The position numbers and the translations under genes were made by a program. DNA of 44,572 nucleotides, from the IMG/VR virus record IMGVR_UViG_3300033141_004333, positions 1-44,572 of that record; one strand, 5' to 3'. Below the pieces are notes generated by a model. The model ran no database searches and had not been told where the DNA came from. It was given only the letters and a program-made list of their open reading frames with translations. Of this stretch, positions 2,004-37,189 are shown one piece after another. This DNA comes from a virus. Numbering within the stretch: position 1 is the stretch's first letter; every line of letters starts with the position of its first letter.

Positions 2004-2515
2004 TGAACGATGTGAATTGGTCAAAAATTGGGAAACATTCTAGGAGAAAAGGTAAGAAATTTGAGCAAGATATAGCCAGAATGCTTCGTTTGGGAATGGG
2101 TGAAAATTGGCAAACAACACGAAATAGTGGTAGAACGGATATTAAAGGTGATATTTATTGTTCTAAATATCCTTTTATTATGATAGAGTGTAAACATAGA
2201 AAATCTTTTAGTTTGCGGTCTATGGTGCAGAAAAATGGGTTATTTCAAAAAGCAGTTATTTATATTATAGATGAGTTTAATAAGTTTTTTACAAATTCTT
2301 CAATATTAATAATTTTTCTTAAAAATGAAACTGGTTTATGGGTAATGGTTGATTTTAGTAATTCTTCAATATTAAATGAAATGTATATAATTTCTGATAT
2401 ACAAATAATAGAAAATGGAAGGATATGGCAGTGGCTGGGTAAGAATATTACATCTGATGAGGGAAAGGAGTTTATGAGTTGGCTTCAGAAGAAACTACAG
2501 AATGGCGGGATTTAG
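2003..2515 (+). CDS. Holliday-junction-resolvase-like PD-(D/E)XK nuclease
   Basis: Small (170 residue) nuclease-like protein. It begins with a basic stretch followed by KGKKFEQDIARML (residues 16-28), then NSGRTDIKGDIY (about 41-52) and MIECKHRKSF (about 60-69). The order E-(x)n-GD-(x)n-ExK is that of the archaeal Hjc and phage resolvase fold. The C-terminal half is less distinctive. It is third in the tightly coupled recombination operon, which fits a role in resolving or trimming recombination intermediates. Its last 37 bases overlap the next gene. The stop is TAG, showing that amber is used as a normal stop in this genome. Confidence 0.7.
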   Translation: MNDVNWSKIGKHSRRKGKKFEQDIARMLRLGMGENWQTTRNSGRTDIKGDIYCSKYPFIMIECKHRKSFSLRSMVQKNGLFQKAVIYIIDEFNKFFTNSSILIIFLKNETGLWVMVDFSNSSILNEMYIISDIQIIENGRIWQWLGKNITSDEGKEFMSWLQKKLQNGGI

Positions 2516-3378
2516 TTAAAGACGCTTTAGAAGAACGATTTGATGGGTTGTTTGAAAAACTTGATCCTTCTTTATATAGAATTGCTGAATCAATGGTCCC
2601 AAATATGAATATAGATGATGTAGTGCAAGCAGCACATATCCGTATTTGGAGGCATTTAGAGGAAATTGATCTCAGTAGGTTAGAAACAATTAAGGCTTTT
2701 CTCTATCGCTTAGCTCTTAATGCTATTCGGGCGGAATCCAATAAAATTATAAAGGGAAATCCAGTAGCAGAAGGTAATGCTAAGGAGAGGCTACATTTAT
2801 ATTATTTAAAAAATAAAGAAGAGAAAAAACGTAAAAGGAGAGAGAGGTATAAAATAAATCCTGAAAAAGAGAGGATACAACAGAAGGAGTATTATTATAA
2901 GCGAAAGGAGGGAATAAAACAAATATCAACACCAAATAATATATGTAGAGTCTATATTGCTGGGCCAATATCTCTAAATTTAAATGATGATGAGCCAAAG
3001 GTTATGCCAATTGATAGAGTAATATATGCATTAAGGGTTGCACAGCAAGTTAGAAAATTTGGTTATACTCCATTTGTGCCACATTTATATTTTTATTGGG
3101 ACCATCATTTTTCAAGATCATATGAATATTGGATAAAATTAGATATAGAATGGTTATTAGCTTGTAATGTGTTGTTTCGGATACACGGTTCATCTAGGGG
3201 GGCAAATGGTGAAGAAGAATTTGCACGAAAAATAATGGGGATACCAATAGTGCATTCGATTGCAGAATTAAAAAACCAATGCCCTATTGATTGCGTTGGG
3301 GGTGAACCGAGGCATTCTATATTACCAGCAGCGGAAAGTACCTTTGATTTTATAAAACAGGAGTTTGATTTAAAATGA
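2479..3378 (+). CDS. Sigma-like domain fused to deoxyribosyltransferase-like domain
   Basis: Two unrelated parts in one 299-residue frame. Residues about 20-95 resemble sigma-70 region 2 of ECF-type factors: VDDVVQAA-like block (IDDVVQAAHIRIWRHL), then a helix with FLYRLALNAIR. A very basic, charged linker follows (about 100-145, KKRKRRERYK and NPEKERIQQKEYY). Residues about 152-275 resemble the nucleoside 2-deoxyribosyltransferase/DUF4406 fold (VYIAGPIS, FVPHLYFYWDHH, W..LDIEWLLACNVLFR, SRGANGEEEFA). No region 4 DNA-binding domain follows region 2. The start is TTG at 2479 with AAGGAG upstream. Function is unknown; a regulator combined with a nucleotide-handling domain is inference. Confidence 0.6.
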   Translation: MASEETTEWRDLVKDALEERFDGLFEKLDPSLYRIAESMVPNMNIDDVVQAAHIRIWRHLEEIDLSRLETIKAFLYRLALNAIRAESNKIIKGNPVAEGNAKERLHLYYLKNKEEKKRKRRERYKINPEKERIQQKEYYYKRKEGIKQISTPNNICRVYIAGPISLNLNDDEPKVMPIDRVIYALRVAQQVRKFGYTPFVPHLYFYWDHHFSRSYEYWIKLDIEWLLACNVLFRIHGSSRGANGEEEFARKIMGIPIVHSIAELKNQCPIDCVGGEPRHSILPAAESTFDFIKQEFDLK

Positions 3379-4001
3379 ATTCAACTAATAAAGTGTTGAT
3401 AGCATGTGAAGAAAGCCAGACAATTACAATTGAATTTAGAAAACAAGGTATTGAGGCTTATTCATGTGATTTGGAACTGTGTTCTGGCGGACATCCTGAA
3501 TGGCATTTACAGCAAGATGTGTTGCCTTTATTGCAAGATAAGTGGAGTATGATTATTGCTCATCCACCTTGTACTTATTTGTCGAATGCAGGTATGGGGT
3601 GGTTTAATATAGATAGATATGGAGATAAAGCTAGAGAACGTAGGCGGTTGAGGTTATTGGCTTTTGATTTCTTTATGAAATTTACCACTGCGAACTCAAA
3701 ACATATATGTATAGAAAATCCTGTAGGGTGGGTCAATTCTCACTGGCGTAAACCGGATCAGATTATACAACCATGGCAATTTGGGCATCCAGAGAGTAAG
3801 ACGACGTGTTTATGGTTAAAAAATCTACCTAAGCTTGAAGCAACAAATATTCTCACTTTACCTGACTCAGGACGTTGGGATAATCAGACACCATCTGGTC
3901 AAAATAAATTAGGACCGTCAAAAAATAGAGCTAAAATACGTAGCAAGACATACTTAGGTATAGCAAAAGCAATAGTGAAACAATGGTCAGTGGAATTATA
4001 A
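3375..4001 (+). CDS. Cytosine-C5-methyltransferase-like phage protein
   Basis: 208-residue member of a phage family usually labelled DNA cytosine methyltransferase. It has a SAM-fold-like start (VLIACEESQTITIEFRKQG, then AYSCDLE), the PPC motif in IIAHPPCTYLSNAG (about residues 57-70), IENPVGW (about 115) and the block QPWQFGHPESKTTCLWLKNLP. It is shorter than restriction-modification C5 methylases and has no clear target-recognition domain. Either it methylates phage DNA or it acts on a nucleotide. Its position just before the polymerase and PurZ genes makes modified-DNA metabolism plausible. The start ATG overlaps the previous stop (ATGA-type). Confidence 0.62.
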   Translation: MNSTNKVLIACEESQTITIEFRKQGIEAYSCDLELCSGGHPEWHLQQDVLPLLQDKWSMIIAHPPCTYLSNAGMGWFNIDRYGDKARERRRLRLLAFDFFMKFTTANSKHICIENPVGWVNSHWRKPDQIIQPWQFGHPESKTTCLWLKNLPKLEATNILTLPDSGRWDNQTPSGQNKLGPSKNRAKIRSKTYLGIAKAIVKQWSVEL

Positions 4002-4003
4002 AA

Positions 4004-6433
4004 ATGAATTCAGTTGAGTTTTGTAATAAGTGTAGTAGGCGTGGTGATGGTAAAGGCTTTATAAAGGCTGAGATTACTGGTAATGATATTTTGGTGTTGG
4101 GGGAACAGCCAGGATATGAGGAATTAAAAGCAGATAAACCATTTGTTGGGCCATCGGGTAAAATACTTCGATCCGTGTTATCTGGAATTACAAATAAATA
4201 TATTATTGATAATGCTGTGCGGTGTTTTCATCAAATTGATAAACCTACTAAAGCTCATATAAATAAATGCCGTCAATGTTGGGTGGATTTAGTTACAAAA
4301 TATAAGCCAAAAGTTATAATTGCTCTTGGGGCCTATGCTGCTCAATCAATTTTACAACAAAAAATAATAATATCTACTAAGGTTGGGCAAATGGAGAGTG
4401 TAGATATTAATGGGCAAATCATTCCAGTTATTTATTCCTATCATCCATCATATTTATTGCGATCAGAGGGCAATAAGGATTTTCGTGCTATTCAAGATAA
4501 ATGGTTCGGGTGTTGGGAATTAGTGGAGTCGATATTAAAAAAAGGAATACCATCTCTTCCAAAAGTTCATCATTTAATTAAATATTTTGAAATTAAAGAA
4601 TATCTACAACAATTACTTCATTCATCTGAAAAATTTGCTTATGATTATGAAGTTGTTGGTGATGTAGATGCAAAGAGACCAGAACTAAATCGGAGTTTAC
4701 AAATAGTATGTATAGGAGTTGCAACGGTTGATGGGGCGGTATGTTTTCCTTTAGATCATCAAGAAATGGTGTGGCAGGATAACCAGCAACATGATATAGT
4801 GCATCTTTGGAAACAAATTATAAAAAATAAAAATCATATAGCACAAAATGCTAAATATGAGCATAAATGTAATTTTTTGCGGTTTGGTGGTTCTACACCA
4901 CTACAAGACACGATGTTAAAAATGCATTGTGTTAATGAAACGGCAAGGTGTAACTTAGGAGCTATTACTGGATGGGCGGGATTGTCGTGGGCCTATTATA
5001 AAACATATTATAAAGATGTACCAGAAAATGTAGGATTGATAAAGTTAGAAAAATTATTAACCTATTGTGGCCTTGACGCATTAGCTACTTATGAATCGGA
5101 GAAAAAGCTTACAGAGGTGATAGAGAAAGAGGGACAGGAAGATGTTGTTGCAATGCAGGAAAATTTTGCTTATTTTCTAGCACAAGTAGAATTGGTTGGT
5201 ATGCATATTAATCCTGAAGAAGTAACGCGATTACGGGTAGAGATAAATTCGAAAATAATAGAAATGGAAGAAAAATTTCAATCTCATCCAGAGGTGCTTC
5301 GGGTTCGAAAATGGGCAATGAAGAATATTAAAACATTTAAAGATGGAGATTTATTTAATCCAAAAAGTCGAAAGCAGATGGAGAGACTTTGTTTTAATGA
5401 GTTGGGATTATCTATACAACCAGATTCAAAGGGTACGCGATCGTTAGATAAGGACCATCTAGCTCCATATGTTGATAAATATTCAGTTATTAAAGATATG
5501 AACCAAGTTCGTTCCTACAGTGCTATGTTAAGTGGATTTCTTAATAAATGGGATGAAAGTTTAGGGCCTCATCATTGTGTCCATACACAATATAACCAAA
5601 CAATAGTTGTAACTAGTAGACTTTCATCTTCTAGTCCAAATTTACAAAACATACCTCGTGATTCAATTATTCGTAAGGCATTTAATAGTAGGTATGATGA
5701 TGGGTATTTGGTGAGTGCTGATTATTCACAACTTGAGCCAATAATTCTAGCAGGATGGTCGGGTGATCAATCAATGTGTAAGGCTATTAATGAGAAATTA
5801 GACTTGCATCGGTGGGTTGCATCTGTGGTGTATAAAGTAGATTATGATGATGTGACTAAGGAGCAGCGGGGACGTGGTAAGACGCTGAATTTAGGACAGA
5901 TGTATGGCCAAACGGAATATGGATTATCACAAGCTGTTAATATTAGTTTAAAAGAAGCGAAAAAGCTGATAGATGGATATAATGATAGATTTCCAGGTAT
6001 CACTCGGTTTCGTCAAGGTTTTCATAGGGAAGCAATTCATAAAGGTTATGTTGAGGATTTGTTTGGTGCAAGGAGGCATCTTCCTAATGCTAGGAGTTCA
6101 GATCGTTGGGAAAGTGAGCGGGCTTTGCGACAAGCTGGTAATTATCCAGTACAATCTACTGGTAATCGCTTTTGTCTGCTCGCGTTGTGTCGTTGTATAG
6201 TAAAATTAAGGCAGGAACGGTTAAAGGCAGTGGTGGTTGGGACGGTTCATGATAGCATTATAATAGATGTAGATGTTGATAGTTTAGAATTAGCTACTGC
6301 TGTATTAAAAGACTCAATGCTCATCCACAATCGGATGTGGTATTGGGTAAACAAACCCACACAATTAGCAGTGGATGTTCATATTGGTAGGAATTTATAC
6401 GAAATGGTTAGTGAAAGCGAATTTAAACTCTAG
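4004..6433 (+). CDS. Uracil-DNA glycosylase / family A DNA polymerase fusion
   Basis: Replicative polymerase, about 809 residues. Residues about 1-180 are a family 4-like UDG: CNKC near the N terminus, GEQPGYEE (about 33), C..C pair in INKCRQC, and HPSY (about 148). The 3'-5' exonuclease follows, with YDYE (about 212), QNAKYEH where Exo II normally has Asp, and YCGLDAL. Polymerase motifs: A ADYSQLEP (about 571), B RGRGKTLNLGQMYG (about 619) and C VHDSI (about 747). Motif C has HDS instead of HDE, and motif B has Leu where E. coli Pol I has Phe762. No 5' nuclease domain is present. Start at 4004 follows the previous stop; an upstream in-frame start at 3983 is possible. The downstream PurZ gene suggests a DpoZ-like role, which is inference. 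Confidence 0.88.
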   Translation: MNSVEFCNKCSRRGDGKGFIKAEITGNDILVLGEQPGYEELKADKPFVGPSGKILRSVLSGITNKYIIDNAVRCFHQIDKPTKAHINKCRQCWVDLVTKYKPKVIIALGAYAAQSILQQKIIISTKVGQMESVDINGQIIPVIYSYHPSYLLRSEGNKDFRAIQDKWFGCWELVESILKKGIPSLPKVHHLIKYFEIKEYLQQLLHSSEKFAYDYEVVGDVDAKRPELNRSLQIVCIGVATVDGAVCFPLDHQEMVWQDNQQHDIVHLWKQIIKNKNHIAQNAKYEHKCNFLRFGGSTPLQDTMLKMHCVNETARCNLGAITGWAGLSWAYYKTYYKDVPENVGLIKLEKLLTYCGLDALATYESEKKLTEVIEKEGQEDVVAMQENFAYFLAQVELVGMHINPEEVTRLRVEINSKIIEMEEKFQSHPEVLRVRKWAMKNIKTFKDGDLFNPKSRKQMERLCFNELGLSIQPDSKGTRSLDKDHLAPYVDKYSVIKDMNQVRSYSAMLSGFLNKWDESLGPHHCVHTQYNQTIVVTSRLSSSSPNLQNIPRDSIIRKAFNSRYDDGYLVSADYSQLEPIILAGWSGDQSMCKAINEKLDLHRWVASVVYKVDYDDVTKEQRGRGKTLNLGQMYGQTEYGLSQAVNISLKEAKKLIDGYNDRFPGITRFRQGFHREAIHKGYVEDLFGARRHLPNARSSDRWESERALRQAGNYPVQSTGNRFCLLALCRCIVKLRQERLKAVVVGTVHDSIIIDVDVDSLELATAVLKDSMLIHNRMWYWVNKPTQLAVDVHIGRNLYEMVSESEFKL

Positions 6434-6465: not shown

Positions 6466-6744
6466 ATGGTAAAAAAGGAAGAAATAAAAGGGGATGGCGA
6501 AAGTTTAGAAATGGAAGATATGGGGTTGGTCTTCAACGGCCAATCAGCAAATCGTGTTTTTGTGGCTCTTGGTAAGACTATTAATATTGGTAATTATGAA
6601 TCTTTTCGGGTTGATGTGGGTCGAGGCAGGGTGGTAGGGGAAGGTCAGGATTTTGATAAGGTGCTTCGACAAACCAAGAATGAAGTAATGAGGGATGTTG
6701 CGGAACTTATAAACTTGGTTGGAAAATTGTTGGAAAAGAAATGA
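6466..6744 (+). CDS. Small conserved-looking phage protein, function unknown
   Basis: 92 residues, with an acidic N-terminal third, a central block KTINIGNYESFRVDVGRG, and a helical C terminus (MRDVAELINLVGKLLEKK). Proteins of about 100 residues with a NYES..V.VG core are common near phage replication genes, but I know of no assigned function. The start at 6466 follows GAAAGGAAGTGA. An in-frame ATG at 6439 lies inside the promoter-like motif and is not favoured. The stop overlaps the next start as ATGA. Confidence 0.6.
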   Translation: MVKKEEIKGDGESLEMEDMGLVFNGQSANRVFVALGKTINIGNYESFRVDVGRGRVVGEGQDFDKVLRQTKNEVMRDVAELINLVGKLLEKK

Positions 6745-7166
6745 CGAATAAGGCTTATTTAGAAATATTAAGAAGAGCAGAGCAAGATCTTCAATTTAGT
6801 CGAGAGACTATAAATAAAAATATGAGTCAACAACCAGCTATGTATTTCTATTATGCCAATCTTTATAATATGTTATCCAGGCAGTCTAAAAAATTGAAAA
6901 TAAAATTAGGGGAAATTGAGTCAAGGGTTTATAAGGAACTGCAAGAAGGTCGAGACCGGATTACAGAGAGAATGCATCTTACCTGGATTTATCAAGATAA
7001 ACAATGGCTTGTGGTTAAGAGAGAGCAGGAGGAAATGGAGTCTCAAGCGGATGGATTAGATAAAATTTGTCGGGCGTTTGAGCATCGTAGGGATATGCTT
7101 GTTAACATTTCAGCTACCATGCGGGCGGAAATGAATTCTGAAATCAGTATTAGAAAATCTATATGA
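6741..7166 (+). CDS. Coiled-coil protein, possible UvsY-like recombination mediator
   Basis: 141 residues, almost wholly helical and highly charged. It contains a heptad-rich stretch YNMLSRQSKKLKIKLGEIES and a C-terminal segment DKICRAFEHRRDMLVNISAT. Size (T4 UvsY is 137 residues), the basic-helical profile and the position directly before a gp32-like SSB gene resemble UvsY, which loads UvsX onto gp32-covered DNA. There is no diagnostic catalytic motif, so the assignment rests on context and profile. It could be an unrelated structural coiled coil. Confidence 0.45.
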   Translation: MTNKAYLEILRRAEQDLQFSRETINKNMSQQPAMYFYYANLYNMLSRQSKKLKIKLGEIESRVYKELQEGRDRITERMHLTWIYQDKQWLVVKREQEEMESQADGLDKICRAFEHRRDMLVNISATMRAEMNSEISIRKSI

Positions 7167-7178: not shown

Positions 7179-7988
7179 ATGGCTGTGAATCGTGATTTAT
7201 TACGAAAAGAAATGGAAAATGCTGCTCAAAGAATGGGAAAAGTAAGGTATATAAAGAAAGGCACTACCAGACTACGTATACTTGAATTTGAAGATTCTGA
7301 AGAAAACCAAAAGTTCTCAAGATTGGTAACCGATCATCGGAAAGTAAATGACAATGCAAAGAGTATTGGTGTATGTCGAGCTAATACTTTAGAGAAGCCT
7401 TGTGTATTTTGTCGTATTAATGAATTAGCCGAAGCCAAAGGACATGAGCGGATTTATGCGGCACGATCGAGATATTATGTTAATGCTATTGCTGTCGATC
7501 AAGATGCTAAGTCTATTCGTATTTGGAGTTTACCAACGACTGTATGGGAAGAGGTTTGTAATTATGTTTTATCAGAAGAATGGGAAGATGTTCTCGAACC
7601 GGAAACAGGACACTGCTTTGAAATCGAGCGGACTGGGGACGGTTTGGATACTGAGTATACAACAACGATTTCACGAAAATCCTATCCGGTAAATAAAGAA
7701 CTTCTAAAACAAGTGATTGATCCTTTAACAGAAGTAGTAGACCAAACACCAGAAGTTCAAGCTCGAAATATAGGTGTTGATTTATCTAAATTATGGGATG
7801 AGCAAGAATTAGAGGAAATTCGAAAGTTAGAGGAACCATCACAAAAGGTTAAAAGCAACTCATTACAAGAGGCAAGGGAATTGTTTTCTAATAAAAAAGA
7901 AAAAAAGAAAAAAGAAGAAGTGAAGGAAGAAACAGAGGAAGATATTGATGATAAAGATTTTTTAAACAGACTAATATATGGGGACTAA
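7179..7988 (+). CDS. gp32-like single-stranded DNA-binding protein
   Basis: 269 residues. A basic N terminus is followed by a core with a CRANTLEKPCVFCRINE cysteine cluster and nearby His (GHE), analogous to the zinc-binding part of T4 gp32. Next comes RSRYYVNAIAV.D...IRIWSLPTTVWEEV, matching the order of a gp32 OB-fold. The C terminus is a lysine-rich segment followed by an acidic tail (EETEEDIDDKDF), the usual protein-interaction tail of SSBs. It sits between the UvsY-like gene and purZ in the replication operon. It is expected to protect single strands and recruit the polymerase and recombinase. Confidence 0.72.
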   Translation: MAVNRDLLRKEMENAAQRMGKVRYIKKGTTRLRILEFEDSEENQKFSRLVTDHRKVNDNAKSIGVCRANTLEKPCVFCRINELAEAKGHERIYAARSRYYVNAIAVDQDAKSIRIWSLPTTVWEEVCNYVLSEEWEDVLEPETGHCFEIERTGDGLDTEYTTTISRKSYPVNKELLKQVIDPLTEVVDQTPEVQARNIGVDLSKLWDEQELEEIRKLEEPSQKVKSNSLQEARELFSNKKEKKKKEEVKEETEEDIDDKDFLNRLIYGD

Positions 7989-7993: not shown

Positions 7994-9067
7994 ATGGAGA
8001 ATAAAATGATTAAACAAGGTAAAGCAAACATTATTATTGATGGTCAATGGGGTAGCACTGGCAAAGGCAAGTTGGCAGGATATCTTTATAATCAATATCC
8101 AATAATTGATGTTGCTGTTGGTGATTTTATGCCAAATGCTGGCCATACGTATATAGATGATAGTGGTAATAAATTTATTACTAAGATGTTGCCAACAGGA
8201 TCATTGATTCGGAGTGTTGAGAATGTCATTATCGGGCCATACGCAGTGATTGATGTGGATAGGCTAAAGGAAGAAATTAAGCAAGCTGAGGAATATCGAG
8301 GTCAGAAATGTGGTGAAGGCTGGTTTCTTTTTATACATCCAATGGCGGGTGTATTAAATAAAAATGATATTGATTTAGAGAAGCGACAGTTGTTTTCGAT
8401 CGCTTCCACTATGACTGGTGGAATGGCTGCTACTGTGCGGAAGATGGAGAGAATACACCCTAAAGAAGGGGAATATGTGATTGCTAGTAATGTACCTTTC
8501 TTAAAACCCTATTTATTACGGGAACCATTTTCTCTCCTAGATGGTGATCATACTGCATTATTGGAGATGGCACAGGGTTTTGACCTTAGCCTTAATTATG
8601 GGTATGGGTGGCCATATGTTACTTCTCGTGATTGTTTGGCGGGTCGAGGTATGGATAATGCTGGATTTCCTCTTAGTGATTTGGGTAATATTATCGCGTC
8701 TTTGCGAACCTATCCTATACGGGTAGGAAATGTTAAAGATGGGTGGAGTGGTCCTCATTATGATGATCAAGAAGAAACCTCTTGGGAAAAGATTAGTGAG
8801 CAAATTGGTCGGGATGTTATAGAATATACTACTGTAACTAAACGGGTAAGAAGAGTCTTTACTTTTAGTTATATTCAATTAGGTAGATTTTTAAAGCTTG
8901 TGAATCCGGACTTTGCTTTTCTCAATTTTATTAACTATATAGAGAAGGAAAAACAAGATTCTTTTATTCATAGGTTACAACAATATATGTATACTCATAA
9001 TTATAATTGTAGATTAAGTCTTATTGGGTATGGTGCTAGAAACAATGAAATGGATATTGTGGTATGA
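7994..9067 (+). CDS. purZ: PurZ, N6-succino-2-amino-deoxyadenylate synthase
   Basis: Phage homologue of adenylosuccinate synthetase, 357 residues, much shorter than bacterial PurA (about 430). The P-loop-like motif reads GQWGSTGKGK (residues 17-26), with Ser21 in place of the catalytic Asp of PurA. That substitution is a hallmark of PurZ and makes room for the 2-amino group of dGMP. Other matching blocks are MPNAGHTYID (catalytic His51), KMLPTGS, LFIHPMAGVL, MAQGFDLSLN, PYVTSRDC, YPIRVG...SGPHY.DQEE..WE and TTVTKRVRRVFTFS (from about 278). Predicted reaction: dGMP + aspartate + nucleoside triphosphate to the succinyl precursor of dZMP. The host PurB would then release fumarate. A start at 8006 is also possible (GGAG six bases upstream). 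Confidence 0.93.
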   Translation: MENKMIKQGKANIIIDGQWGSTGKGKLAGYLYNQYPIIDVAVGDFMPNAGHTYIDDSGNKFITKMLPTGSLIRSVENVIIGPYAVIDVDRLKEEIKQAEEYRGQKCGEGWFLFIHPMAGVLNKNDIDLEKRQLFSIASTMTGGMAATVRKMERIHPKEGEYVIASNVPFLKPYLLREPFSLLDGDHTALLEMAQGFDLSLNYGYGWPYVTSRDCLAGRGMDNAGFPLSDLGNIIASLRTYPIRVGNVKDGWSGPHYDDQEETSWEKISEQIGRDVIEYTTVTKRVRRVFTFSYIQLGRFLKLVNPDFAFLNFINYIEKEKQDSFIHRLQQYMYTHNYNCRLSLIGYGARNNEMDIVV

Positions 9068-9594
9068 AAATTATTAGTGTAATTGGAACAACAGGAACTG
9101 GCAAGACCACTTATTGTGAAGACTTGGTAGAACTCTTTCCCAAAGATAATCCCCCCATGTTAGTGCGGATGGGGAAGATCTTTCGGGGGATATTTAAGGA
9201 AGCGTTTTTTATCAACCAAAACAATCCGGCTACTTCTGAAGCTACTGAATTATTGGCACGTTCGTTTGTATATCACTTGATACAGGTTGGGCTTTGTTAT
9301 AATAAAGATATAATTTTAGATGGGTTTCCTCGAAGCTTGTCTCAATTAACCTATCTTCTTGACACAATGCGAATGTGTGATGTGAAGAATCTGGATATAA
9401 AGTTTTTATATACAGATGAAGGTGAACAATGGAAACGATTGAAGGATAGGGAAGAGAATAATTTCAATTCTGTTTTCTATAGAAAGAAAATAGAGACAGA
9501 TGCACGACAATTATCTGAGTTGATTATGGAATATAAGCGTATAATAAAAAATGATTTTACTGGTCGAAAGACGTTTGAGGAGATATATTGTTAA
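9064..9594 (+). CDS. Adenylate-kinase-like nucleoside monophosphate kinase
   Basis: 176-residue P-loop kinase. GTTGTGKTT (residues 8-16) is the ATP-binding loop and LDGFPRSLSQ (about 84-93) is the adenylate-kinase signature. It is shorter than cellular Adk and lacks a clear LID insertion. It overlaps the purZ stop by four bases (ATGA) and the dUTPase start, so the three are co-translated. The natural inference is phosphorylation of a deoxynucleotide made in this pathway, perhaps dZMP. In characterised Z phages that step is credited to host kinases. Substrate cannot be read from sequence. Confidence 0.8.
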   Translation: MKIISVIGTTGTGKTTYCEDLVELFPKDNPPMLVRMGKIFRGIFKEAFFINQNNPATSEATELLARSFVYHLIQVGLCYNKDIILDGFPRSLSQLTYLLDTMRMCDVKNLDIKFLYTDEGEQWKRLKDREENNFNSVFYRKKIETDARQLSELIMEYKRIIKNDFTGRKTFEEIYC

Positions 9595-10046
9595 TGTTAT
9601 CATTAAAAGTTGTGTATGATAGTGAGATAGTAGCAGTAAGGGCAGCTTTGAAACGAGCAAAAGAAGGAGATTGTGCTTACGATCTCTATAATGCGTCGGG
9701 ACTTACAATAATTGTTGGTCCAAGGAAGAGTAAAAATATATCGGCGGGGATAAGGATTAAAATTCCTGATGGATGTTGTGGTATTATTCAGTCTAGATCA
9801 TCAACTTTTGTTCGTCGAGGTTTGATGGTAATTACAGGTATAATAGATAGTGGTTATACAGGCCCTCTTTATACATTAGTTTGGAATCCTGCTCTTAATG
9901 GAGGGTTAGCACCAATATTAATTAAGCCATGGGAGAGGATTAGTCAATTATTAATTTTACCAATTCCTGATTTCAATATTGTTCAAGTAACACAATTACC
10001 GGATACAAAGAGAGGTTCATCTGGTTTTGGAAGTACGGGTTTTTGA
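9594..10046 (+). CDS. dut: dUTPase
   Basis: Trimeric-type dUTP pyrophosphatase, about 150 residues, converting dUTP to dUMP and pyrophosphate. All five family motifs are visible in order: CAYDLYNA (I), PDGCCGIIQSRSS (II), GIIDSGYTGPLYT (III), WERISQLLI (IV) and RGSSGFGSTGF at the C terminus (V, the flexible phosphate-binding arm). The start at 9594 overlaps the kinase stop (TAATG); a TTG six bases upstream is an alternative. Together with the UDG domain on the polymerase it gives this phage two independent routes against uracil in DNA. Confidence 0.93.
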   Translation: MLSLKVVYDSEIVAVRAALKRAKEGDCAYDLYNASGLTIIVGPRKSKNISAGIRIKIPDGCCGIIQSRSSTFVRRGLMVITGIIDSGYTGPLYTLVWNPALNGGLAPILIKPWERISQLLILPIPDFNIVQVTQLPDTKRGSSGFGSTGF

Positions 10047-10237: not shown

Positions 10238-11377
10238 GTGATGTTCTCGAACGAGAATAATTGCTTTCTAGTTGAGCAAATATTAACCTACTTTGATAAA
10301 TATCATGAGAAACCATCTTATGATACCCTAGTTGATGTAATCAAAGATACCAACTATCGGGATAAGGGTGGATTGATTACGACTCTTAGAAATCTCCCAG
10401 AGTGTGGAGATTTAAATTATATACGAGACAAAATTTTAGCTTGGGTAAAATGGACAGCAATTGATCAGGTACTTCAAAGTTTTTCATTTACTCCTAATAA
10501 TGGGTTGGACCCAAAACTGTTAGCAAAAGAGATTGATAAATCATCTCGTATTGGAGATGATCTTTTAATGAACCATACTAAGTTAGATGTAGATCAGCAG
10601 GAGTCCAGGAATAAGGTAGTTAGAACTCCATGGCGGAAACTTGATTATAGATTGAATGGGGGGATTGAAGTGGGTGATTTAGGTATTATTCTAACTGTGG
10701 TAAGTGGGGGTAAGACTACAGTTTTAGTTAATATTGCGGTTAGTGCGATTTGTCAAGGTTTGTTTGTTGTATATTTTACTTTTGAAGATGGTGAAGCTAA
10801 AATTAAGCGTCGGTTGATGCAGTGTATTGCTAATAAGACGATTTCGGAAATGATTGATAATCCTCAAGAGGCACGTCAGATGCGTGATAAGGTGTTATCT
10901 AAGACTTCTGGTCGATGTGAAATCAAACAAGTAACTACAAGAACTACGAAAATATCTGATGTGATTTCATTTGTGCGATCACTAGAGGAAACGCAGGGAC
11001 GAAAGGTAGATGTAATAATTACTGACTATGCTGATCGGTTTTGTCCACCAAATAGACGATCGGAGCCTAGACATGAATATCGGGAGATTTTTGAATCTTG
11101 TAAGGCAGCAGCGGGGTTGCTCAAAGTTGTTCATTGGACAGCTTCCCAAGTGAATAAAACTAGAATGGGTAAGGAGATTGTGTCGGTGGAAGATGTATCA
11201 GAGGCATATGGAAAAGTAGAATCTGCTGATATAGTGCTGGGGTTTGGTCAAACGCTAGAGGATGAACAACTTGAACGTATTACTCTTTATACAGCAAAGA
11301 TGCGTGACGCTAGTAGACATGAGAAGATTTTGTTGGGGATTGATTTTGGAAGGCAAAGATTATGGGAATTAGAATGA
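10238..11377 (+). CDS. DnaB-like replicative helicase (start uncertain)
   Basis: RecA-fold replicative helicase. The frame contains WRKLDYRLNGGIEVGDLGII, then TVVSGGKTT as Walker A (about residue 153; Thr where A/G is usual), FEDGEAKIKRR, VDVIITDYADRF as Walker B (about 256), and a SQVNKT-type motif. The first usable codon is GTG 10238, yet the frame is open back to 10121. The upstream stretch reads like the normal start of a phage DnaB N-terminal domain (DPEFEEKIISAIFQDSNFL). GTG 10238 also has its AGGAG too close. The protein may therefore begin near 10124-10133 at a non-ATG codon. The gene overlaps the primase gene, forming a helicase-primase pair. Confidence 0.82.
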   Translation: MMFSNENNCFLVEQILTYFDKYHEKPSYDTLVDVIKDTNYRDKGGLITTLRNLPECGDLNYIRDKILAWVKWTAIDQVLQSFSFTPNNGLDPKLLAKEIDKSSRIGDDLLMNHTKLDVDQQESRNKVVRTPWRKLDYRLNGGIEVGDLGIILTVVSGGKTTVLVNIAVSAICQGLFVVYFTFEDGEAKIKRRLMQCIANKTISEMIDNPQEARQMRDKVLSKTSGRCEIKQVTTRTTKISDVISFVRSLEETQGRKVDVIITDYADRFCPPNRRSEPRHEYREIFESCKAAAGLLKVVHWTASQVNKTRMGKEIVSVEDVSEAYGKVESADIVLGFGQTLEDEQLERITLYTAKMRDASRHEKILLGIDFGRQRLWELE

Positions 11378-12297
11378 ATAAAAGAGAAGTTTTAAACCAC
11401 ATTACATCAATGGTATTTTCTGGTGAGTATATATTCTCTGATGATACCAATCAATTAATAGTCTCTTGTCCTTTTTGTGAGACGGATAGTGGGCATTTTT
11501 ATGTCAATATAGAAAAATTTTTATATCATTGTTTCAAATGTAAAGTGGGTGGGAGTTTAAAGAATGAGATTTATAGAAATTTAGAGTCGTGGACAAAACT
11601 TAGGAGACATTTAATCTCTACCACTAATTTAAAAACTTTTCGTATATCTGAGTTGGTAGATGATTCTAAGACATTATTAATTCCTATATTTGAAGCGTTG
11701 GAGTTAGGAGAAGATGATTTGGGGTATAGTTCATTGGCTGTTAAGGCTTATAAATATTGTATAAATAGGGGGATGACTCGTGGACAAGTTGCTGATTACC
11801 ATGTATCAGTAGTGCGTTTTGAAAATCGCGTGTATTTTCCTTATTGGAATAAGATAAATAAAATAATCTTTTATACTGGTAGACAATTAGATGATATAGA
11901 TGATGGAGTCAAGACAATTGAAATGGTAAATTCTAGCAAACCCCTATTTGGAAGACATATTCATCAATGGCATGACTATGTGGTGCTAGTTGAAGGTGTT
12001 TTTGATCACTTTGTGACTCCTCATTCATACGCTATAATGGGTAGTTCTATTACACAACAACAAATTAATCAATTAAGAGATGATCATATCCAAAGAGTGT
12101 TTTTGTTGTGCGATCCAGATGCTGAAAAGGGAATGTTGTTCTCTGCGAATAAGCTAGCTCGCGGGGGGGTAAAAACCTTTCCTGTTTTTATGGCCGGAAA
12201 TAAAGACCCTGCGGAGTTGGGCTGGGCAAAAATGGCTAATATTGTGGAGCAGTTAGAGACGGTTCAGTACCGACGATCGCAGATAGTGAGGGTGTGA
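11374..12297 (+). CDS. T7-type DNA primase (zinc finger plus TOPRIM)
   Basis: 307 residues. The N-terminal CHC2-type zinc finger has CPFC (about residues 31-34) and CFKC (about 52-55). The TOPRIM domain has LVEGVFDHF (about 205, catalytic Glu) and LLCDPDAEKG (about 245, DxD). It makes RNA primers for lagging-strand synthesis and should work with the helicase encoded immediately upstream. The start at 11374 gives an ATGA overlap; ATG 11362, with GGAAGG upstream, is an equally reasonable start. A gene-free region beginning with an 87-base dispersed repeat follows directly after the stop. Confidence 0.85.
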   Translation: MNKREVLNHITSMVFSGEYIFSDDTNQLIVSCPFCETDSGHFYVNIEKFLYHCFKCKVGGSLKNEIYRNLESWTKLRRHLISTTNLKTFRISELVDDSKTLLIPIFEALELGEDDLGYSSLAVKAYKYCINRGMTRGQVADYHVSVVRFENRVYFPYWNKINKIIFYTGRQLDDIDDGVKTIEMVNSSKPLFGRHIHQWHDYVVLVEGVFDHFVTPHSYAIMGSSITQQQINQLRDDHIQRVFLLCDPDAEKGMLFSANKLARGGVKTFPVFMAGNKDPAELGWAKMANIVEQLETVQYRRSQIVRV

Positions 12298-15089: not shown

Positions 15090-15470
15090 ATGCTTAAAAC
15101 TCCAATATATGCAAAACTCCTCCTCTTATTAGACACAAGTCCTTACTATATAGGTGACATTGCACATGATCTGTATGGAAAGGATTCAAAGAGAAACAGA
15201 GATAGAGCTCATGTTATGATCGAAAATACGAGGAAACTTGGATGGAACGTTGTACAAAGTCAACGTGCGTGTTTCGAACTTTCAACAGACCATTTTTCCC
15301 TTTTAGACAATCAAGATGTCAAAGATATAATGCTAAACTGGCGAGGGAGTTCTATGACACCGGAATATGTAGATTTTGAACTTCTCAGGTATAAGACTAT
15401 ACGTCGGGTCAAGAATATAGATGCGGATAATGATACCGACAAACTCAAACAGAAAGAAGGTGTAGAATGA
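15090..15470 (+). CDS. Hypothetical protein, possible winged-helix fold
   Basis: 126 residues with GAAAGGAT upstream. The first 60 residues (KLLLLLDTSPYYIGDIAHDLYGKDSK, then RAHVMIENTRKLGWNVV) have the helix order of a winged-helix DNA-binding domain, in which IGDIAHDLYG would be the turn. The C terminus is charged and probably disordered. The stop overlaps the LRR gene start (ATGA), so it may regulate or accompany that protein. Function is not known. Confidence 0.45.
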   Translation: MLKTPIYAKLLLLLDTSPYYIGDIAHDLYGKDSKRNRDRAHVMIENTRKLGWNVVQSQRACFELSTDHFSLLDNQDVKDIMLNWRGSSMTPEYVDFELLRYKTIRRVKNIDADNDTDKLKQKEGVE

Positions 15471-15645
15471 AAGTGGAAAATGAAATTACAGATAAAAGAC
15501 TGGAAACCGCAATCAAAAGACAATTACGAATTGTAGACTCAGAACAAATAACAAAAGCAGACTTGCTTGGGTTGACTAAATTAGAGGCATCTTGGGAAGG
15601 CATTAAGAGCTTAAAGGGTCTTGAGTATGCAGTAAACTTGACGGA
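15467..15645 (+). repeat. Duplicated LRR-cap DNA, copy A
   Basis: The LRR N-cap coding sequence recurs at 16535-16713 with only scattered base changes, most at the variable cap residues. The 66-base LRR units that follow are also similar to each other. The two copies are about 1.07 kb apart in direct orientation, separated by the YopX coding sequence. This arrangement could recombine to add or delete repeats. Confidence 0.75.
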
Positions 15646-16117
15646 CTTGAACCTGTGGGGTAACAAAATCATTGATGTATCACCGTTGGCCGGTTTGGTA
15701 AATTTGAAGATTTTGTCCCTATCGGATAACAAAATCATTGATATATTACCGTTGGCTGGTTTGAAAAATTTGACGGGCTTGTCCCTATCGGACAATAAAA
15801 TCATTAATATATTACCACTGGCAGGTTTAGTAAACTTGACGGGCTTGTACCTGTCGGATAATAATATCACCGATATATCACCATTGGTTGGTTTAGTAAA
15901 CTTGAAGAGCTTGTACCTGCGGGATAACAAAATCATTGATATATCGCCATTGGCTGGTTTGAAAAATTTGACGGACTTGTACCTGTCGGGTAATAATATC
16001 ATTGATATATCACCATTGACTGGTTTGGTAAACTTAACGGACTTGTCTCTGTGGAATAATAACATTACCGATGTGTCACCGTTGGCTGGCTTGGTAAACT
16101 TGAAGATTTATTCTTAA
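15467..16117 (+). CDS. Leucine-rich-repeat protein, internalin-type
   Basis: 216 residues. A 55-residue N-terminal cap (MKVENEITDKRLETAIKRQL) is followed by seven full 22-residue LRRs and a partial one, each of the type LVNLTxLxLSxNxIxDISPLAG. This is the SDS22/internalin repeat consensus, which forms a curved protein-binding surface. No signal peptide or membrane segment is seen, so it should act in the host cytoplasm. LRR proteins bind other proteins; an anti-host or anti-defence decoy role is inference. It was the apparent source, or sister, of the LRR block fused to YopX in the next gene. Confidence 0.8.
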   Translation: MKVENEITDKRLETAIKRQLRIVDSEQITKADLLGLTKLEASWEGIKSLKGLEYAVNLTDLNLWGNKIIDVSPLAGLVNLKILSLSDNKIIDILPLAGLKNLTGLSLSDNKIINILPLAGLVNLTGLYLSDNNITDISPLVGLVNLKSLYLRDNKIIDISPLAGLKNLTDLYLSGNNIIDISPLTGLVNLTDLSLWNNNITDVSPLAGLVNLKIYS

Positions 16118-16171
16118 TATGAAATAAAGCTAAGGCATAGATTGCTGATACTGGTGTGAAAGGAAAAGGCA

Positions 16172-17056
16172 ATGCGTGAGATAGAATTTAGAGGCAAACA
16201 AACGCTGACTGGCGAGTGGATTTATGGTAGTTTGTTACAATACAAAGGGTTGAATTATAAAATACAATCGTTTATTATGCCGGACGGAATTTATGGAGTC
16301 ACAATAGAGGTTGACGCTGCTACTATAGGGCAATATATCGGACTAAAAGACAAGAACGGCGTTAAGATATTTGAAGGGGATATAGTAACTTTTAATGATT
16401 ACCAAGGATACGTTAAGTATTTTGATAGTAGTTTTGAGGTGATGTCAGACGGGACAAAATTTTATGACATGATGGGGCCAAAGTTCTCTTGGCACAAATT
16501 AGAAGTAATTGGAAATGTCCACAACAATAAGGAAATGAAAGTGGAAAATGAAATTACAGATAAAAGACTGGAAACCGCAATCAAAAAACAATTACGAATT
16601 GTAGACTCAGAACCGATAACAAAAGCGGACATGTTTAGGTTGACTAAATTAAATGTACCTTGGAGAGACATTAAGAGCTTAAAGGGTCTTGAGTATGCGG
16701 TAAACTTGAAGTACTTGAACCTGTGGGGTAACAAAATCACCGATATATCTCCGTTAGCTGACTTGAAAAACTTGAAGAACTTGAACCTACGGGACAATAA
16801 AATCATTGATATATTACCACTGGCAGGTTTAGTAAATTTGACGGGCTTGGACTTGTCGAGTAATAACATCGTCGATATATCACTGTTAGCTAGTTTGAAA
16901 AATTTGAAGGATTTGTACTTGTCGGGTAATAATATCACCGATATATCATCTTTGGCTAGTTTGGTAAACTTAAAGAGCTTGTCCCTGTGGGGTAATAAAA
17001 TCATTGATGTATCATCTTTGGCTGGCTTGAAAAACTTGAAGATTCATTCTTTATGA
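16172..17056 (+). CDS. YopX-domain protein fused to LRR domain
   Basis: 294 residues. Residues 1-121 form a complete phage YopX domain (MREIEFRGKQTLTGEWIYGS, IGQYIGLKDKNGVKIFEGDIV, HKLEVIGNVHNNKE). At residue 122 the sequence becomes MKVENEITDKRLETAIKKQL, a near copy of the start of the preceding LRR protein. Five full 22-residue repeats and a partial one follow. Normal YopX proteins stop at about this point, so the fusion removed a stop codon. The internal ATG (16535) has AAGG only two bases upstream and is a poor independent start. The function of YopX is not established. Confidence 0.78.
   Translation: MREIEFRGKQTLTGEWIYGSLLQYKGLNYKIQSFIMPDGIYGVTIEVDAATIGQYIGLKDKNGVKIFEGDIVTFNDYQGYVKYFDSSFEVMSDGTKFYDMMGPKFSWHKLEVIGNVHNNKEMKVENEITDKRLETAIKKQLRIVDSEPITKADMFRLTKLNVPWRDIKSLKGLEYAVNLKYLNLWGNKITDISPLADLKNLKNLNLRDNKIIDILPLAGLVNLTGLDLSSNNIVDISLLASLKNLKDLYLSGNNITDISSLASLVNLKSLSLWGNKIIDVSSLAGLKNLKIHSL
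16535..16713 (+). repeat. Duplicated LRR-cap DNA, copy B (fused to YopX)
   Basis: Direct repeat of 15467-15645. Here it is joined in frame to the end of the YopX coding sequence rather than beginning its own gene. Confidence 0.75.
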
Positions 17057-23709: not shown

Positions 23710-24483
23710 ATGAGTTATGGACTTCCAGGAATCAAAACTACGAAAATTACAACTCCTAGAAAGGTGTTGAAAACATTAGATCATTCAATCAAACTTCCAG
23801 GTGGTGTTATTATTGATGGAAGTTTGTCACGTGATCCTCTGAATACAGGTGATGTAGATGTGCTACGTGCTGGAATGATTATGGGTAAGATCACTGCGAC
23901 TGGTTTATTTGCTCCCTCAATATATGGGAAGCTATTAAATAATGAGCCTGCTGGTCAAACATCAATTGAGGTATCCGTTGCCACGGCGACTGAAATTCTT
24001 AGACGTGTTGGGGGTGTTGCTGGTGATCTTATAATCATTGGTGATGGTGGAACTGGAGCAGCTCCTACCCAAGAACGGGTAACGATGTCGAATTGTGTTC
24101 CGTCTACAGGAATTATAACTGTTGGTGCTATTACAGGTCCATTTTTGGCAGGAAGTGTAATTTGTCCTGCTGATGGATCTGAAATACCGCTTGGGCTTAT
24201 TGGTGATGGTTATGGACACAAAGTTACCGATGAAAATAATGCAAATATTAATATACCACTTCACAATTTGTTGGTGGGTGGAATTGTTGACGAAAGCCAA
24301 ATTATCAATTGGCCTACACCATATGAGACGCAGGAATGGTATCGAAACGCACTTGGTAAGATTGGTGTTGGTTTGTGGATTTTTGATAATCTGTTTACAG
24401 GTACAACTGTTCCTGAAGCACCTACACCTAGCCCAACACCTACACCTACACCTACACCAACACCTACACCTACTCCAACCTAA
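23710..24483 (+). CDS. Capsid decoration-like protein with Pro-Thr tail
   Basis: 257 residues, preceded by AAAGGAGATATAAC. Position between scaffold and major capsid genes and features such as GDVDVLRAGMIMGKITATG suggest a head decoration protein of the lambda gpD/Mu-like type. Glycine-rich beta segments continue to about residue 235. The last 20 residues are a regular Pro-Thr repeat with a single Ser (24421-24480). The tail looks like an exposed, possibly glycosylated extension; that is inference. Two other virion genes have the same kind of tail. Confidence 0.6.
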   Translation: MSYGLPGIKTTKITTPRKVLKTLDHSIKLPGGVIIDGSLSRDPLNTGDVDVLRAGMIMGKITATGLFAPSIYGKLLNNEPAGQTSIEVSVATATEILRRVGGVAGDLIIIGDGGTGAAPTQERVTMSNCVPSTGIITVGAITGPFLAGSVICPADGSEIPLGLIGDGYGHKVTDENNANINIPLHNLLVGGIVDESQIINWPTPYETQEWYRNALGKIGVGLWIFDNLFTGTTVPEAPTPSPTPTPTPTPTPTPTPT

Positions 24484-26337: not shown

Positions 26338-28303
26338 TATAATCGCGATAACTGGTGGTATTGGCACGGCGGCAGCAGCGTCCGATGATAATGGCGGGAT
26401 GATCGTTAAGGGGACTCTCACATTAGCACAAATTTATAGTAGTGATTTTTGTGGTGCTAATGGAGCAGCTAAAATCCATCAGGCTAGTTGCAATTATGAT
26501 GATGATTATGGTGTTGGTAATACACATAGAATAACTACGACTGGTGGGGCTTTTGGGACTACTGATCGAACTGGTTGGTTTGTACATGCCGTTTGCGACG
26601 CAGCACAGAGCTTTGATGATTGGGTTGAAGTTCTTGCGTGGGATACAACTAATGGTAATTGGCTTGAATGTGAACGACCAACTGGAGCAACGGGTGATGA
26701 TGGGACCAACAGTACAGAAGTTTGGTTAGGTGGTGCGTTTGCGACATTACAGCATACCGCTGATATTTTACCTGCCGGATATGACAACTATGAGATATGG
26801 ATATACGCTTATACAGATGATGTTACAGCGGACCAAATTGATATTGATGCTGTCGGCGGGGATCGTGTGAATAACTATTGGCTGAAAGTCATTGCTTGTA
26901 CAAACGAAGGGGTTGAATTGGCATCGGGGGAATATCTATCCTTTGACGCTGATAATACCGAAGCAATGGCTACAAAGGCCATTATCTGCGTTGGTGGAAT
27001 AAGTAACGTTTGGTTCAAACATTTATGGACTAAAAATAATCGACATATAGTCGTGCCAGACGTGATTGTCACCGAAGGTACAGGTTTTGAATGGACAGCG
27101 GGAGATACGGTTTACAATTTAGTATTTGATGATTGTAAGTCTACTGGTTGTGGTTATGGTCTGGATGTGTCGTCTATACATACTTACGATACAATGGTTA
27201 TAAACTCATATTTCAGCGGTATTGTAAATGCACTTACTATGGATAGGTCTCTGGGTCAGAAAATCTTTAATAATTATTTAGCAATAGAAGATAGTTTTAA
27301 GGCTGATACTTCTACAGTAATTTACGCAACGTATGCCCCACATATTACTGGTAATGTTATTGTTGGAGGGGCTTACGGCGTTCGATGTATAAATTCAGGA
27401 ATAGCAGATATTCATAACAATACATTTGACAATCAAACTATAGCATGTATTCGCACATATTCAGAGGCTCTTGTTGAATACAACAACATTTTTGAAGTTG
27501 CTGATCCTGCCAACGATTTAGCAGTCTGGTTAGAAGGCAAAACAATTATGTACAGTGATTATAGTTGTACTAATTCAACTGCAGCTAATCGCTGGGGCGG
27601 CGGTGGTGTACCAGAACATGCAATTGATGGTGTAAGTGCGGGGCTTGATGCTAATTATAGACCCACAATAAAGTCAATATTAACAGGAGGTCTTCAGTAT
27701 AATGAAGAAGATTGTGCGATGGGTGCTGTTCAATCAGCAGACTGGACTGCCGAAAATCCGGATATTATTACCGGAACAGTAAATCTTAATATTGATTTAT
27801 TTTGTTCTAAAGAATTGAATATGTCTACACCTTTTGATGATTTGCGAATTGGTGAATCTATGCAGATAAGTAATGATTCAAGGGATCATCAAGTTGATAA
27901 AATATGGAGTGATACGAGGACTTTAGCTACTGGTGTATCAGAAGAATTAGACCTCACAAATTCTTTACGTAGTGGGTTGGGAGATAAAATAACTTTTTTT
28001 GATATTAAAGTATTTTACATTAGAAATTGTTCAACCACGGATACTTTGAAAATTGGGGGGGCTGCTTCTGGGGCTTTTCCTATATTCAATGATAGTAGTG
28101 ATATATTAGTCTTACAACCTGATACAGATGTTGCAATTCTGTTTCATAGTGAAAATGGACTGGTGGTAGATGATAATGATATATTAAAAGTTAAACATGG
28201 TGGTGAGACATCTGGTAGTTTAGAATATGACATTATTATTGCTGGATTAGAAATACGACCAACACCTACTCCAACACCTACTCCAACACCTACACCTACA
28301 TAA
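26330..28303 (+). CDS. Beta-helix virion protein with Pro-Thr tail
   Basis: 657 residues. The middle (about 230-430) has short repeating segments rich in N, G, V and I (ITGNVIVGGAYGVRCINSG, IHNNTFDN, VEYNNIF). These are typical of a right-handed parallel beta-helix as found in tailspikes and pectate lyases. Residues about 485-640 are a separate domain paralogous to the whole protein encoded at 29222. The last 14 residues are seven Pro-Thr pairs (28259-28300). It is likely an exposed head or tail fibre/spike that binds sugars; an enzyme activity is not shown. Confidence 0.6.
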   Translation: MSDIIAITGGIGTAAAASDDNGGMIVKGTLTLAQIYSSDFCGANGAAKIHQASCNYDDDYGVGNTHRITTTGGAFGTTDRTGWFVHAVCDAAQSFDDWVEVLAWDTTNGNWLECERPTGATGDDGTNSTEVWLGGAFATLQHTADILPAGYDNYEIWIYAYTDDVTADQIDIDAVGGDRVNNYWLKVIACTNEGVELASGEYLSFDADNTEAMATKAIICVGGISNVWFKHLWTKNNRHIVVPDVIVTEGTGFEWTAGDTVYNLVFDDCKSTGCGYGLDVSSIHTYDTMVINSYFSGIVNALTMDRSLGQKIFNNYLAIEDSFKADTSTVIYATYAPHITGNVIVGGAYGVRCINSGIADIHNNTFDNQTIACIRTYSEALVEYNNIFEVADPANDLAVWLEGKTIMYSDYSCTNSTAANRWGGGGVPEHAIDGVSAGLDANYRPTIKSILTGGLQYNEEDCAMGAVQSADWTAENPDIITGTVNLNIDLFCSKELNMSTPFDDLRIGESMQISNDSRDHQVDKIWSDTRTLATGVSEELDLTNSLRSGLGDKITFFDIKVFYIRNCSTTDTLKIGGAASGAFPIFNDSSDILVLQPDTDVAILFHSENGLVVDDNDILKVKHGGETSGSLEYDIIIAGLEIRPTPTPTPTPTPTPT

Positions 28304-29221: not shown

Positions 29222-29779
29222 ATGGATGTAACAGGCAGTGCACAAATAAAGATTAATTTGGCTATAACAAAATCCCTTGATCTTAGTTCAGTGGCGGATG
29301 CTTTAAATGTGGCGAGAAAGCTTACTGTGGCTAGCACAGTTGGTGATAATCACCAAGTAAATGCTGTCTGGCATGATCAAAGGACTTTGACAACTGGACA
29401 AACAGAAACACTAGATTTGTCTGCTTCACTGAGTGATAGTTTTGGTGATCTAGTGACCTTTTTTGATATTAAAATGTTGTATATTAGGAATCTATCAACA
29501 GCGAATAACCTTGAAATAGGTGGTATAGGAGTAGCCGATGTTCCTTTATGCGACAATGTAAGTGATATTATTGTTCTTCCTCCAGAAAGTGAAATAATAT
29601 GGTTGTTCCATAATGAAAATGGTTTAGTTGTTGATACGAATGATCAATTGAAGATGACCCATAGTGGCACTACTGCAGCAGATTTGCTTTACAATATAGC
29701 TATTGCGGGGTTGTCTGCAGCACCGACTCCGACTCCGACACCTACTCCTAGCCCAACACCTACTCCTACACCAACTTAA
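29222..29779 (+). CDS. Virion beta protein with Pro-Thr tail, paralogue of spike domain
   Basis: 185 residues. It aligns along most of its length with the C-terminal domain of the beta-helix protein: VNAVWHDQRTLTTGQTETLDL against DKIWSDTRTLATGVSEELDL, FFDIKMLYIRN against FFDIKVFYIRN, and LFHNENGLVV against LFHSENGLVV. It ends in nine Pro-Thr/Ser pairs (29723-29776). It is probably displayed on the virion surface. The duplication looks internal to this phage lineage. Function is unknown. Confidence 0.6.
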   Translation: MDVTGSAQIKINLAITKSLDLSSVADALNVARKLTVASTVGDNHQVNAVWHDQRTLTTGQTETLDLSASLSDSFGDLVTFFDIKMLYIRNLSTANNLEIGGIGVADVPLCDNVSDIIVLPPESEIIWLFHNENGLVVDTNDQLKMTHSGTTAADLLYNIAIAGLSAAPTPTPTPTPSPTPTPTPT

Positions 29780-36295: not shown

Positions 36296-37189
36296 ATGAG
36301 CAAGAAGATTTGTGTGGTTATCCCCTCTCGTAACGAAACACTTCTAACAAGAACGGTCAAGCAATACTTTTCCTCCGCAAAAAATCCCGACGATATAAAA
36401 ATTGATGTTATTCTTGATGGATGGGATATTTTTGCTAACAACAAATCCAATCAAATAATGATAGATATCTACAGAAGTCAGATTGAAGAAATTAAACAGA
36501 TGGCAGAATCTGATCAAAGAATTACAATTCATGATTTGCCTGATTCTCTAGGAGTCAGACATGCTTTAAATTTAGCTTTAGCAAGAACCGATGCTACTTA
36601 TTTCATTAAATTAGATGCACATTGTGATCTCAGTCTTAATTGGGATGTCGAACTTATCAAATCTTATGAAGAAGCGGGACTCGAAACTTTAATCATTCCT
36701 AGAATCCAATCAATGGATCCTGAAACTTTCGCTTATGGACATCGTTTTTTTGATTATCTTTATATTGATAGTGACATTCACCAGAGACATTGGCCAGAAT
36801 ATGCTCAGCGTGAAGAAGCAAAAAAATCTGTTTGTGAAGTAATGAGCAATTTAGGTGCTTCGTGGTTTAGTTCGGTTCAGTATTGGTGGCAAATTGGTGG
36901 ACATGATGAATCTTTATATAGCTGGGGGGAATCTGCACCGGAAACAAGTTTGAAATGTTGGTTATCTGGTGGTAAGCAACTATTAAATAAAAATGTGTGG
37001 TTTGCCCATGTATTCAGAAGACGTTTTCCTTACAAAGTTAGTGCAGCAGGAATACAAGAAAATAAAAGACGAACAAAAGAATACTGGCTTAATAATCAAT
37101 ATCCCTTGCAGATTCATTCAATAGATTGGTTAGTAGATAAATTCTGGCCCGTACCAACATGGGATAGAAAGAGGATGCAAAATGGATAA
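36296..37189 (+). CDS. Family 2-like glycosyltransferase (paralogue A)
   Basis: 297 residues. GT-A fold features: ICVVIPSRNE at the N terminus, VILDGWD, a long helix leading to LGVRHALNLALARTDATYFIKLDAHCD (DxH, metal-binding equivalent of DxD, about residue 110), and a WWQIGGHDESLYSWG acceptor-side loop. It is paralogous to the gene at 37835, sharing the ending HSIDWLVDKFWPVPTWD. It probably transfers a sugar to a phage or host glycan. First gene of a nine-gene surface-modification cluster. Confidence 0.8.
   Translation: MSKKICVVIPSRNETLLTRTVKQYFSSAKNPDDIKIDVILDGWDIFANNKSNQIMIDIYRSQIEEIKQMAESDQRITIHDLPDSLGVRHALNLALARTDATYFIKLDAHCDLSLNWDVELIKSYEEAGLETLIIPRIQSMDPETFAYGHRFFDYLYIDSDIHQRHWPEYAQREEAKKSVCEVMSNLGASWFSSVQYWWQIGGHDESLYSWGESAPETSLKCWLSGGKQLLNKNVWFAHVFRRRFPYKVSAAGIQENKRRTKEYWLNNQYPLQIHSIDWLVDKFWPVPTWDRKRMQNG

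Follow-up and report, generated by a model that had tools for sequence, protein, structure and literature searches.

A viral purZ gene adjoined by adenylate-kinase-like and DutZ-like genes: a proposed route to 2-aminoadenine nucleotides

Introduction

Phages that replace adenine (A) with 2-aminoadenine (Z) encode PurZ, a relative of the adenylosuccinate synthetase PurA. The PurZ of phage phiVC8 (6fko, 6fm1, 6tnh) and that of S-2L (7odx) carry a Ser in place of the catalytic Asp13 of PurA, and in both phages the gene lies in a Z-cluster with datZ and mazZ. The phosphorylation of dZMP in the known Z-phages is ascribed to host enzymes. A second group, the PurZ0 phages (Arthrobacter phage Wayne, Gordonia phage Archimedes), forms a distinct branch with a GSEAKG motif and encodes DutZ and DmtZ. 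DutZ has been reported to hydrolyse dATP and dGTP (PMC12884076). Some Z-phages have a PolA-family polymerase, DpoZ, in which F459 (phiVC8 numbering) is the only change common to both DpoZ clades (PMC8599892). A selective polymerase is not found in every case. S-2L reaches complete replacement with a non-selective PrimPol, through control of the dNTP pool (PMC8065100).

Here we describe a purZ locus in a viral genome from IMG/VR (IMGVR_UViG_3300033141_004333). The whole record, 44,572 nucleotides with a GC content of 35%, is referred to as the window. From the synthetase gene, the original prediction was that this phage replaces some or all of its adenine with Z. The most informative feature of the locus is one that the prediction left unmentioned, the kinase and DutZ-like genes that adjoin purZ.

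The Locus and Its Near Relatives

The genes upstream of purZ encode a UvsX-like recombinase, nucleases, a sigma-70 region 2-like domain fused to a nucleoside 2-deoxyribosyltransferase (NDT) domain, a UDG-PolA polymerase of the SPO1 type, a UvsY-like protein and a single-strand DNA-binding protein (SSB). An adenylate-kinase-like gene and a dUTPase-fold gene follow in overlapping reading frames, and then DnaB and DnaG (Table 1). The UvsX/gp32-like set that had been predicted is thus present as UvsX-like, UvsY-like and SSB genes, and the Mu-like head genes are found as a portal, a gpF-like gene and a head-tail adaptor. The primase had been called T7-type; it is of the DnaG type, with a separate DnaB helicase.

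Table 1. Features of the purZ region, with positions in the window.
Feature	Position	Strand	Remarks
Sigma-70 region 2-like + NDT/DUF4406 fusion	2479..3378	+	phrog_355, E 1.6e-14; Tyr/Asp/Glu triad
Replicative DNA polymerase: family-4 UDG domain fused to PolA, SPO1-type, not DpoZ	3983..6433	+	
UvsY-like recombination mediator	6741..7166	+	
Single-strand DNA-binding protein	7179..7988	+	phrog_1192, E 1e-22; directly 5' of purZ
purZ, N6-succino-2-amino-2'-deoxyadenylate synthetase (PurZ)	7994..9067	+	357 aa; Ser21; pocket conserved; fold and clade of PurZ
Adenylate-kinase-like NMP kinase, proposed dZMP kinase	9064..9594	+	176 aa; ATGA overlap with purZ stop; ADK family
Trimeric dUTPase-fold protein, DutZ-like; proposed dATP/dGTP (and dUTP) diphosphohydrolase	9588..10046	+	Groups with DutZ of PurZ0 phages
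DnaB-like replicative helicase	10238..11377	+	
DnaG-like primase	11362..12297	+	

The same block is conserved, in the same order, in L006/L008 (PurZ 85% identical) and in L007 (59%). The window is near-complete, since in L007 the genes of its right end directly precede the gene of its left end, and since it starts inside an ORF that is present in L007. No match came up when the window was scanned for Rfam families and tRNAs. Elsewhere in the window, genes for glycosyltransferase-like proteins, methyltransferases (FkbM and others) and PIG-L deacetylase form a cassette at 36296-43434, which is partly kept in L007. Two adjoining leucine-rich-repeat proteins (15467-17056) are made of 66-bp tandem repeats. 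Three ORFs terminate in (Pro-Thr)n runs encoded by short tandem repeats (24419-24473, 28259-28300, 29721-29775), and a C-terminal Pro-Thr tail is also found on the PurZ of L007.

A PurZ-Type Synthetase

The predicted ORF, with its GQWGSTGKGK motif, could be read directly. Ser21 within this motif takes the position of the PurA catalytic Asp13. The best NCBIfam model is NF038379 (PurZ; E 2.2e-65, 220.8 bits), followed by an archaeal-type PurA at 113.8 bits. The score is below the curated cut-off of NF038379 (300 bits), which counts against the PurZ reading; it is probably low because the model was built on the known PurZ clade. In a profile comparison the protein scored 254 bits for PurZ vs. 75 bits for PurZ0. 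The best PDB match is phiVC8 PurZ (6fm1/6fko, 1.4e-59), with S-2L PurZ (7odx) also found, and the nearest PurZ of isolated phages are those of phiVC8 (37% identity) and ZP6 (41%).

Structure gives the same answer. A Foldseek search with the AlphaFold model (pLDDT 91.9) placed phiVC8 PurZ with dGMP at the top (E 3e-33, TM 0.84-0.85), then S-2L PurZ and Pyrococcus PurA; PurZ0 ranked 12 and bacterial PurA fell below. The dGMP/ATP pocket was compared at 33 positions, using the S-2L ligand-site list (PMC8342488). Most of them are either unchanged or differ in ways also seen among known PurZ, and the unchanged ones include V244, which excludes the 2'-OH, as well as R243, Q194, T279-T282, N311, F312 and N314. 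The window enzyme thus shares with the phiVC8 and S-2L enzymes the Ser, the pocket, the fold and the length. It differs from them in its 37% identity, in its clade and, within the pocket, mainly at A137 (Gly in known PurZ, G130) and A348 (Pro in most known PurZ, P336).

The phylogenetic check called for by the original prediction also favours PurZ. In a tree of 95 rows rooted on PurA (a quick tree, in which moderate supports need caution), the Ser-type enzymes separate from PurA (support 100). The window protein falls in a clade of 21 phage rows (99) within a larger clade (97) that also holds the known PurZ of phiVC8, S-2L, SH-Ab 15497 and others, themselves another well-supported clade. PurZ0 is placed apart from the window, beside chromosomal paralogues. 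A further branch is formed by mostly Clostridia- or Bacilli-assigned PurZ-like proteins with GQAGSCGKGK, possibly from prophages (genome contigs L023-L035, L039, L040, L042, L043, L045, L047, L060).

Judged on sequence, the identification as PurZ is firm. Its key residue, ligand pocket, fold and phylogenetic position all mark the enzyme as PurZ-type, so it is likely to produce dZMP from dGMP, and the phage is likely to synthesize dZTP.

Two Kinds of purZ Locus

At least 577 relatives emerged when IMG/VR was scanned with a profile, and the 80 best of them were read. A set of 74 non-redundant viral purZ loci comprises 29 with the kinase, 39 with DatZ/MazZ, six with neither and none with both. 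This exclusivity follows lineage, with three changes on the tree, and so does not represent many independent events; we therefore dropped it as statistically independent evidence. At the level of gene content, what is new here is the context, a second kind of purZ locus with a kinase in place of DatZ/MazZ. The Ser at the PurA catalytic Asp position is present in the window and in all kinase-type loci inspected.

The companions of the known Z-cluster are missing. HMMs for DatZ, MazZ, DUF5664 and DmtZ found nothing convincing in the window, the L006 contig or all but about 1.2 kb of the L007 contig. Across 21 whole kinase-type contigs neither DatZ nor PF04447 scored above the cut-off, with controls positive in 4/4 and 3/4 cases, respectively. 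These contigs reach 262 kb. In 17 of the 21 there is a single dUTPase class, from one or other of two unrelated folds: the trimeric, DutZ-like PF00692 in 10 and PF08761 in seven, the latter usually fused to the kinase. Neither class occurs in any of four DatZ-type controls. PurB (adenylosuccinate lyase) is encoded in the three largest (262, 136 and 126 kb). No guanylate kinase was found in kinase-type phages.

The Adenylate-Kinase-Like Gene

The AlphaFold2 model of the kinase (pLDDT 93.3) has adenylate kinases as its nearest folds, the best being the short E. coli enzyme (8pvw, E 4e-8). It shares with them the P-loop NMP kinase fold and the DGFPR-xxx-Q motif, and differs in its low identity (<22%), short length, own conserved residues and tie to purZ. 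Six residues are invariant in all 29 kinase sequences (G13, K14, G37, P89, R90 and Q94). The Gln that follows GFPR in adenylate kinases touches the N1/N6 edge of adenine, the face that adenine has in common with 2-aminoadenine. This Gln alone does not separate dZMP from dAMP and is equally expected for an AMP/dAMP kinase.

The association with purZ is close. The kinase ORF starts -10 to +99 nt from the end of the purZ ORF in all kinase-type loci except L122 (299 nt), and the pair is found on contigs of very different gene content. In six loci the kinase is fused to a dUTPase_2 domain (PF08761). A seeming triple fusion in L139 was not accepted: its C-terminal domain is NDT-like by eye, but it had no PHROGs match and only a weak profile match. 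A kinase-profile match in the Clostridium locus L043 was likewise dropped, as it falls in an apparent FtsY. We found no close homologue of the kinase in isolated phages, and no mention of a dZMP kinase in the openly accessible Z-phage literature.

Similar pairs exist in cells. On bacterial and archaeal chromosomes, 17 Ser-type PurA paralogues (GGQFGSEGKG; L041, L056, L058, L064, L066, L069, L077-L081, L083, L085, L086, L091, L094, L096) carry an in-frame N-terminal kinase-like domain, with a D-x-x-R-x-x-x-Q motif in all 17 and a recognisable P-loop in 16. These fusions independently suggest that a kinase and a synthetase of these kinds act together. Shorter, unfused chromosomal Ser-type paralogues occur in many phyla, e.g., in Nostoc and Nitrosomonas.

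We conclude that the adenylate-kinase-like enzyme probably phosphorylates dZMP. That it is instead a general dNMP, polynucleotide or DNA-hypermodification kinase that sits beside purZ by chance is quite improbable: the kinase of L113 does weakly match HMUDK and a phrog polynucleotide kinase, and one of the weaker fold matches is a polynucleotide kinase, but adenylate kinases are the nearest fold, the adjacency to purZ is kept over deep divergence and differing genome contexts, and there are fusions to a dNTP hydrolase domain as well as the separate kinase-PurZ-like fusions in cells.

The dUTPase-Fold and NDT-Domain Proteins

In a 34-row tree the dUTPase-fold proteins of kinase-type loci group with the DutZ of PurZ0 phages, apart from 11 ordinary phage dUTPases (support 100/99). 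The tree does not establish the two sets as a single clade among themselves (p-AU 0.227, not rejected). DutZ-like membership rests on this one tree and on few measured enzymes, and dUTPase activity alone would fit as well. The dUTPase of Moorella phage MTATph1 (L215), for which our searches listed no PurZ, also falls inside the DutZ group, on a long branch. On a Bacteroidetes MAG contig (L082:6001-7523) a Ser-type PurA paralogue is directly followed by a DutZ-like gene.

A DutZ-type enzyme near the synthetase and an NDT-fold domain in the genome are thus common to the window and the PurZ0 phages. The window differs from these in having the kinase, in the branch of its synthetase and in its polymerase, which lacks the DpoZ Phe. 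We also could not identify the NDT domain as DmtZ: it has a Tyr/Asp/Glu triad (Tyr/Asn(Asp)/Glu in DmtZ), but the profile match is non-significant, leaving the triad only. The sigma-NDT protein is a possible dNMP-processing accessory. The fusion is unusual, with a TTG start within the preceding gene; it is also fused in L006 and L007, and the two parts are separate ORFs in L100.

The DNA Polymerase

The window polymerase belongs, like DpoZ, to the PolA family. It is a UDG-fused, SPO1-type enzyme that scores 304 bits for PolI vs. 67/27 for DpoZ. In helix O, at the position of DpoZ Phe459, it and the kinase-type PolA sequences have a Tyr. The DpoZ-matching polymerases of DatZ/MazZ-type records and of both PurZ0 records have Phe there, with the exception of the DatZ-type locus L174 (Tyr); L123/L124 and L160 are unaligned at this position. 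The profile scores and the Tyr rule out a divergent DpoZ.

A Proposed Route to Z Nucleotides

We think it reasonably probable that the three overlapping genes, purZ, the kinase gene and the dutZ-like gene, act as one operon that provides the phage replisome with 2-aminoadenine nucleotide. The substrates of the steps, and the DNA composition that would follow, are what we infer from the PurZ identity, the conserved operon order, the kinase fold with its adenylate-kinase-type Gln, the Dut-DutZ link and the lack of a recognisable DatZ, MazZ or DpoZ. The DutZ-like enzyme would convert dGTP to dGMP and dATP to dAMP. PurZ would then join dGMP and aspartate to give dSMP, which PurB of the host (phage-encoded in the largest relatives) would convert to dZMP. 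The adenylate-kinase-like enzyme would phosphorylate dZMP to dZDP and the host NDP kinase dZDP to dZTP, which the UDG-PolA polymerase would place opposite T. A and Z would be discriminated by control of the dNTP pool instead of by a DpoZ-type polymerase, and the genome may therefore be wholly or partly Z. Of the original Z interpretation, then, the PurZ-type enzyme and a likely supply of dZMP from dGMP hold up, whereas the known A-excluding companions DatZ, MazZ and DpoZ were not found in the window or in two near-complete relatives. With neither DatZ nor DpoZ, no known part accounts for how A would be kept out.

A mixed genome, in which Z replaces A in part and to an extent sufficient to blunt restriction, is a sub-case of this operon reading and compatible with it. 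It would accord with an ordinary polymerase that has Tyr at the Phe459 position and with the absence of DatZ/MazZ from the window, two near-complete relatives and the large kinase-type contigs. The full replacement reached by S-2L with its non-selective enzyme argues the other way, as the DutZ-like enzyme could exert the same pool control in the window phage. On balance we consider a mixed genome rather unlikely.

The main rival reading does without Z. A PurA-like synthetase, PurB (in the large relatives) and an adenylate kinase make up the ordinary route from IMP to ADP, and these genes might do no more than increase the dATP/ATP available to an AT-rich phage. The gene types fit that canonical route, as do the low GC content and the adenylate-kinase-type Gln. 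This leaves unaccounted for the change of the catalytic Asp to Ser in the window and every kinase-type locus inspected, the retention of V244 and other PurZ-specific pocket residues, a closest fold and clade that are those of PurZ, and a Dut of the DutZ type. Plain adenine supply is thus improbable.

The Z-nucleotide operon may also have a wider meaning. Kinase-linked PurZ could be a third, deep-branching Z-DNA system next to the DatZ/MazZ/DpoZ and PurZ0/DutZ/DmtZ kinds, a suggestion that we offer tentatively. In large phages, of 126-262 kb, it would come close to self-sufficiency, with PurZ, PurB and its own dZMP kinase. It would work with polymerases that have no Z-selective signature, and would share its kinase-synthetase pairing with the cellular fusions. 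If the proposal is true, these phages would provide a test of whether Z-DNA requires a Z-selective polymerase or whether pool control and a dedicated kinase suffice, and would open to study how dZMP is activated. They would also widen the likely range of Z-phages to those with large genomes, and would offer a candidate dZMP kinase for making Z-DNA.
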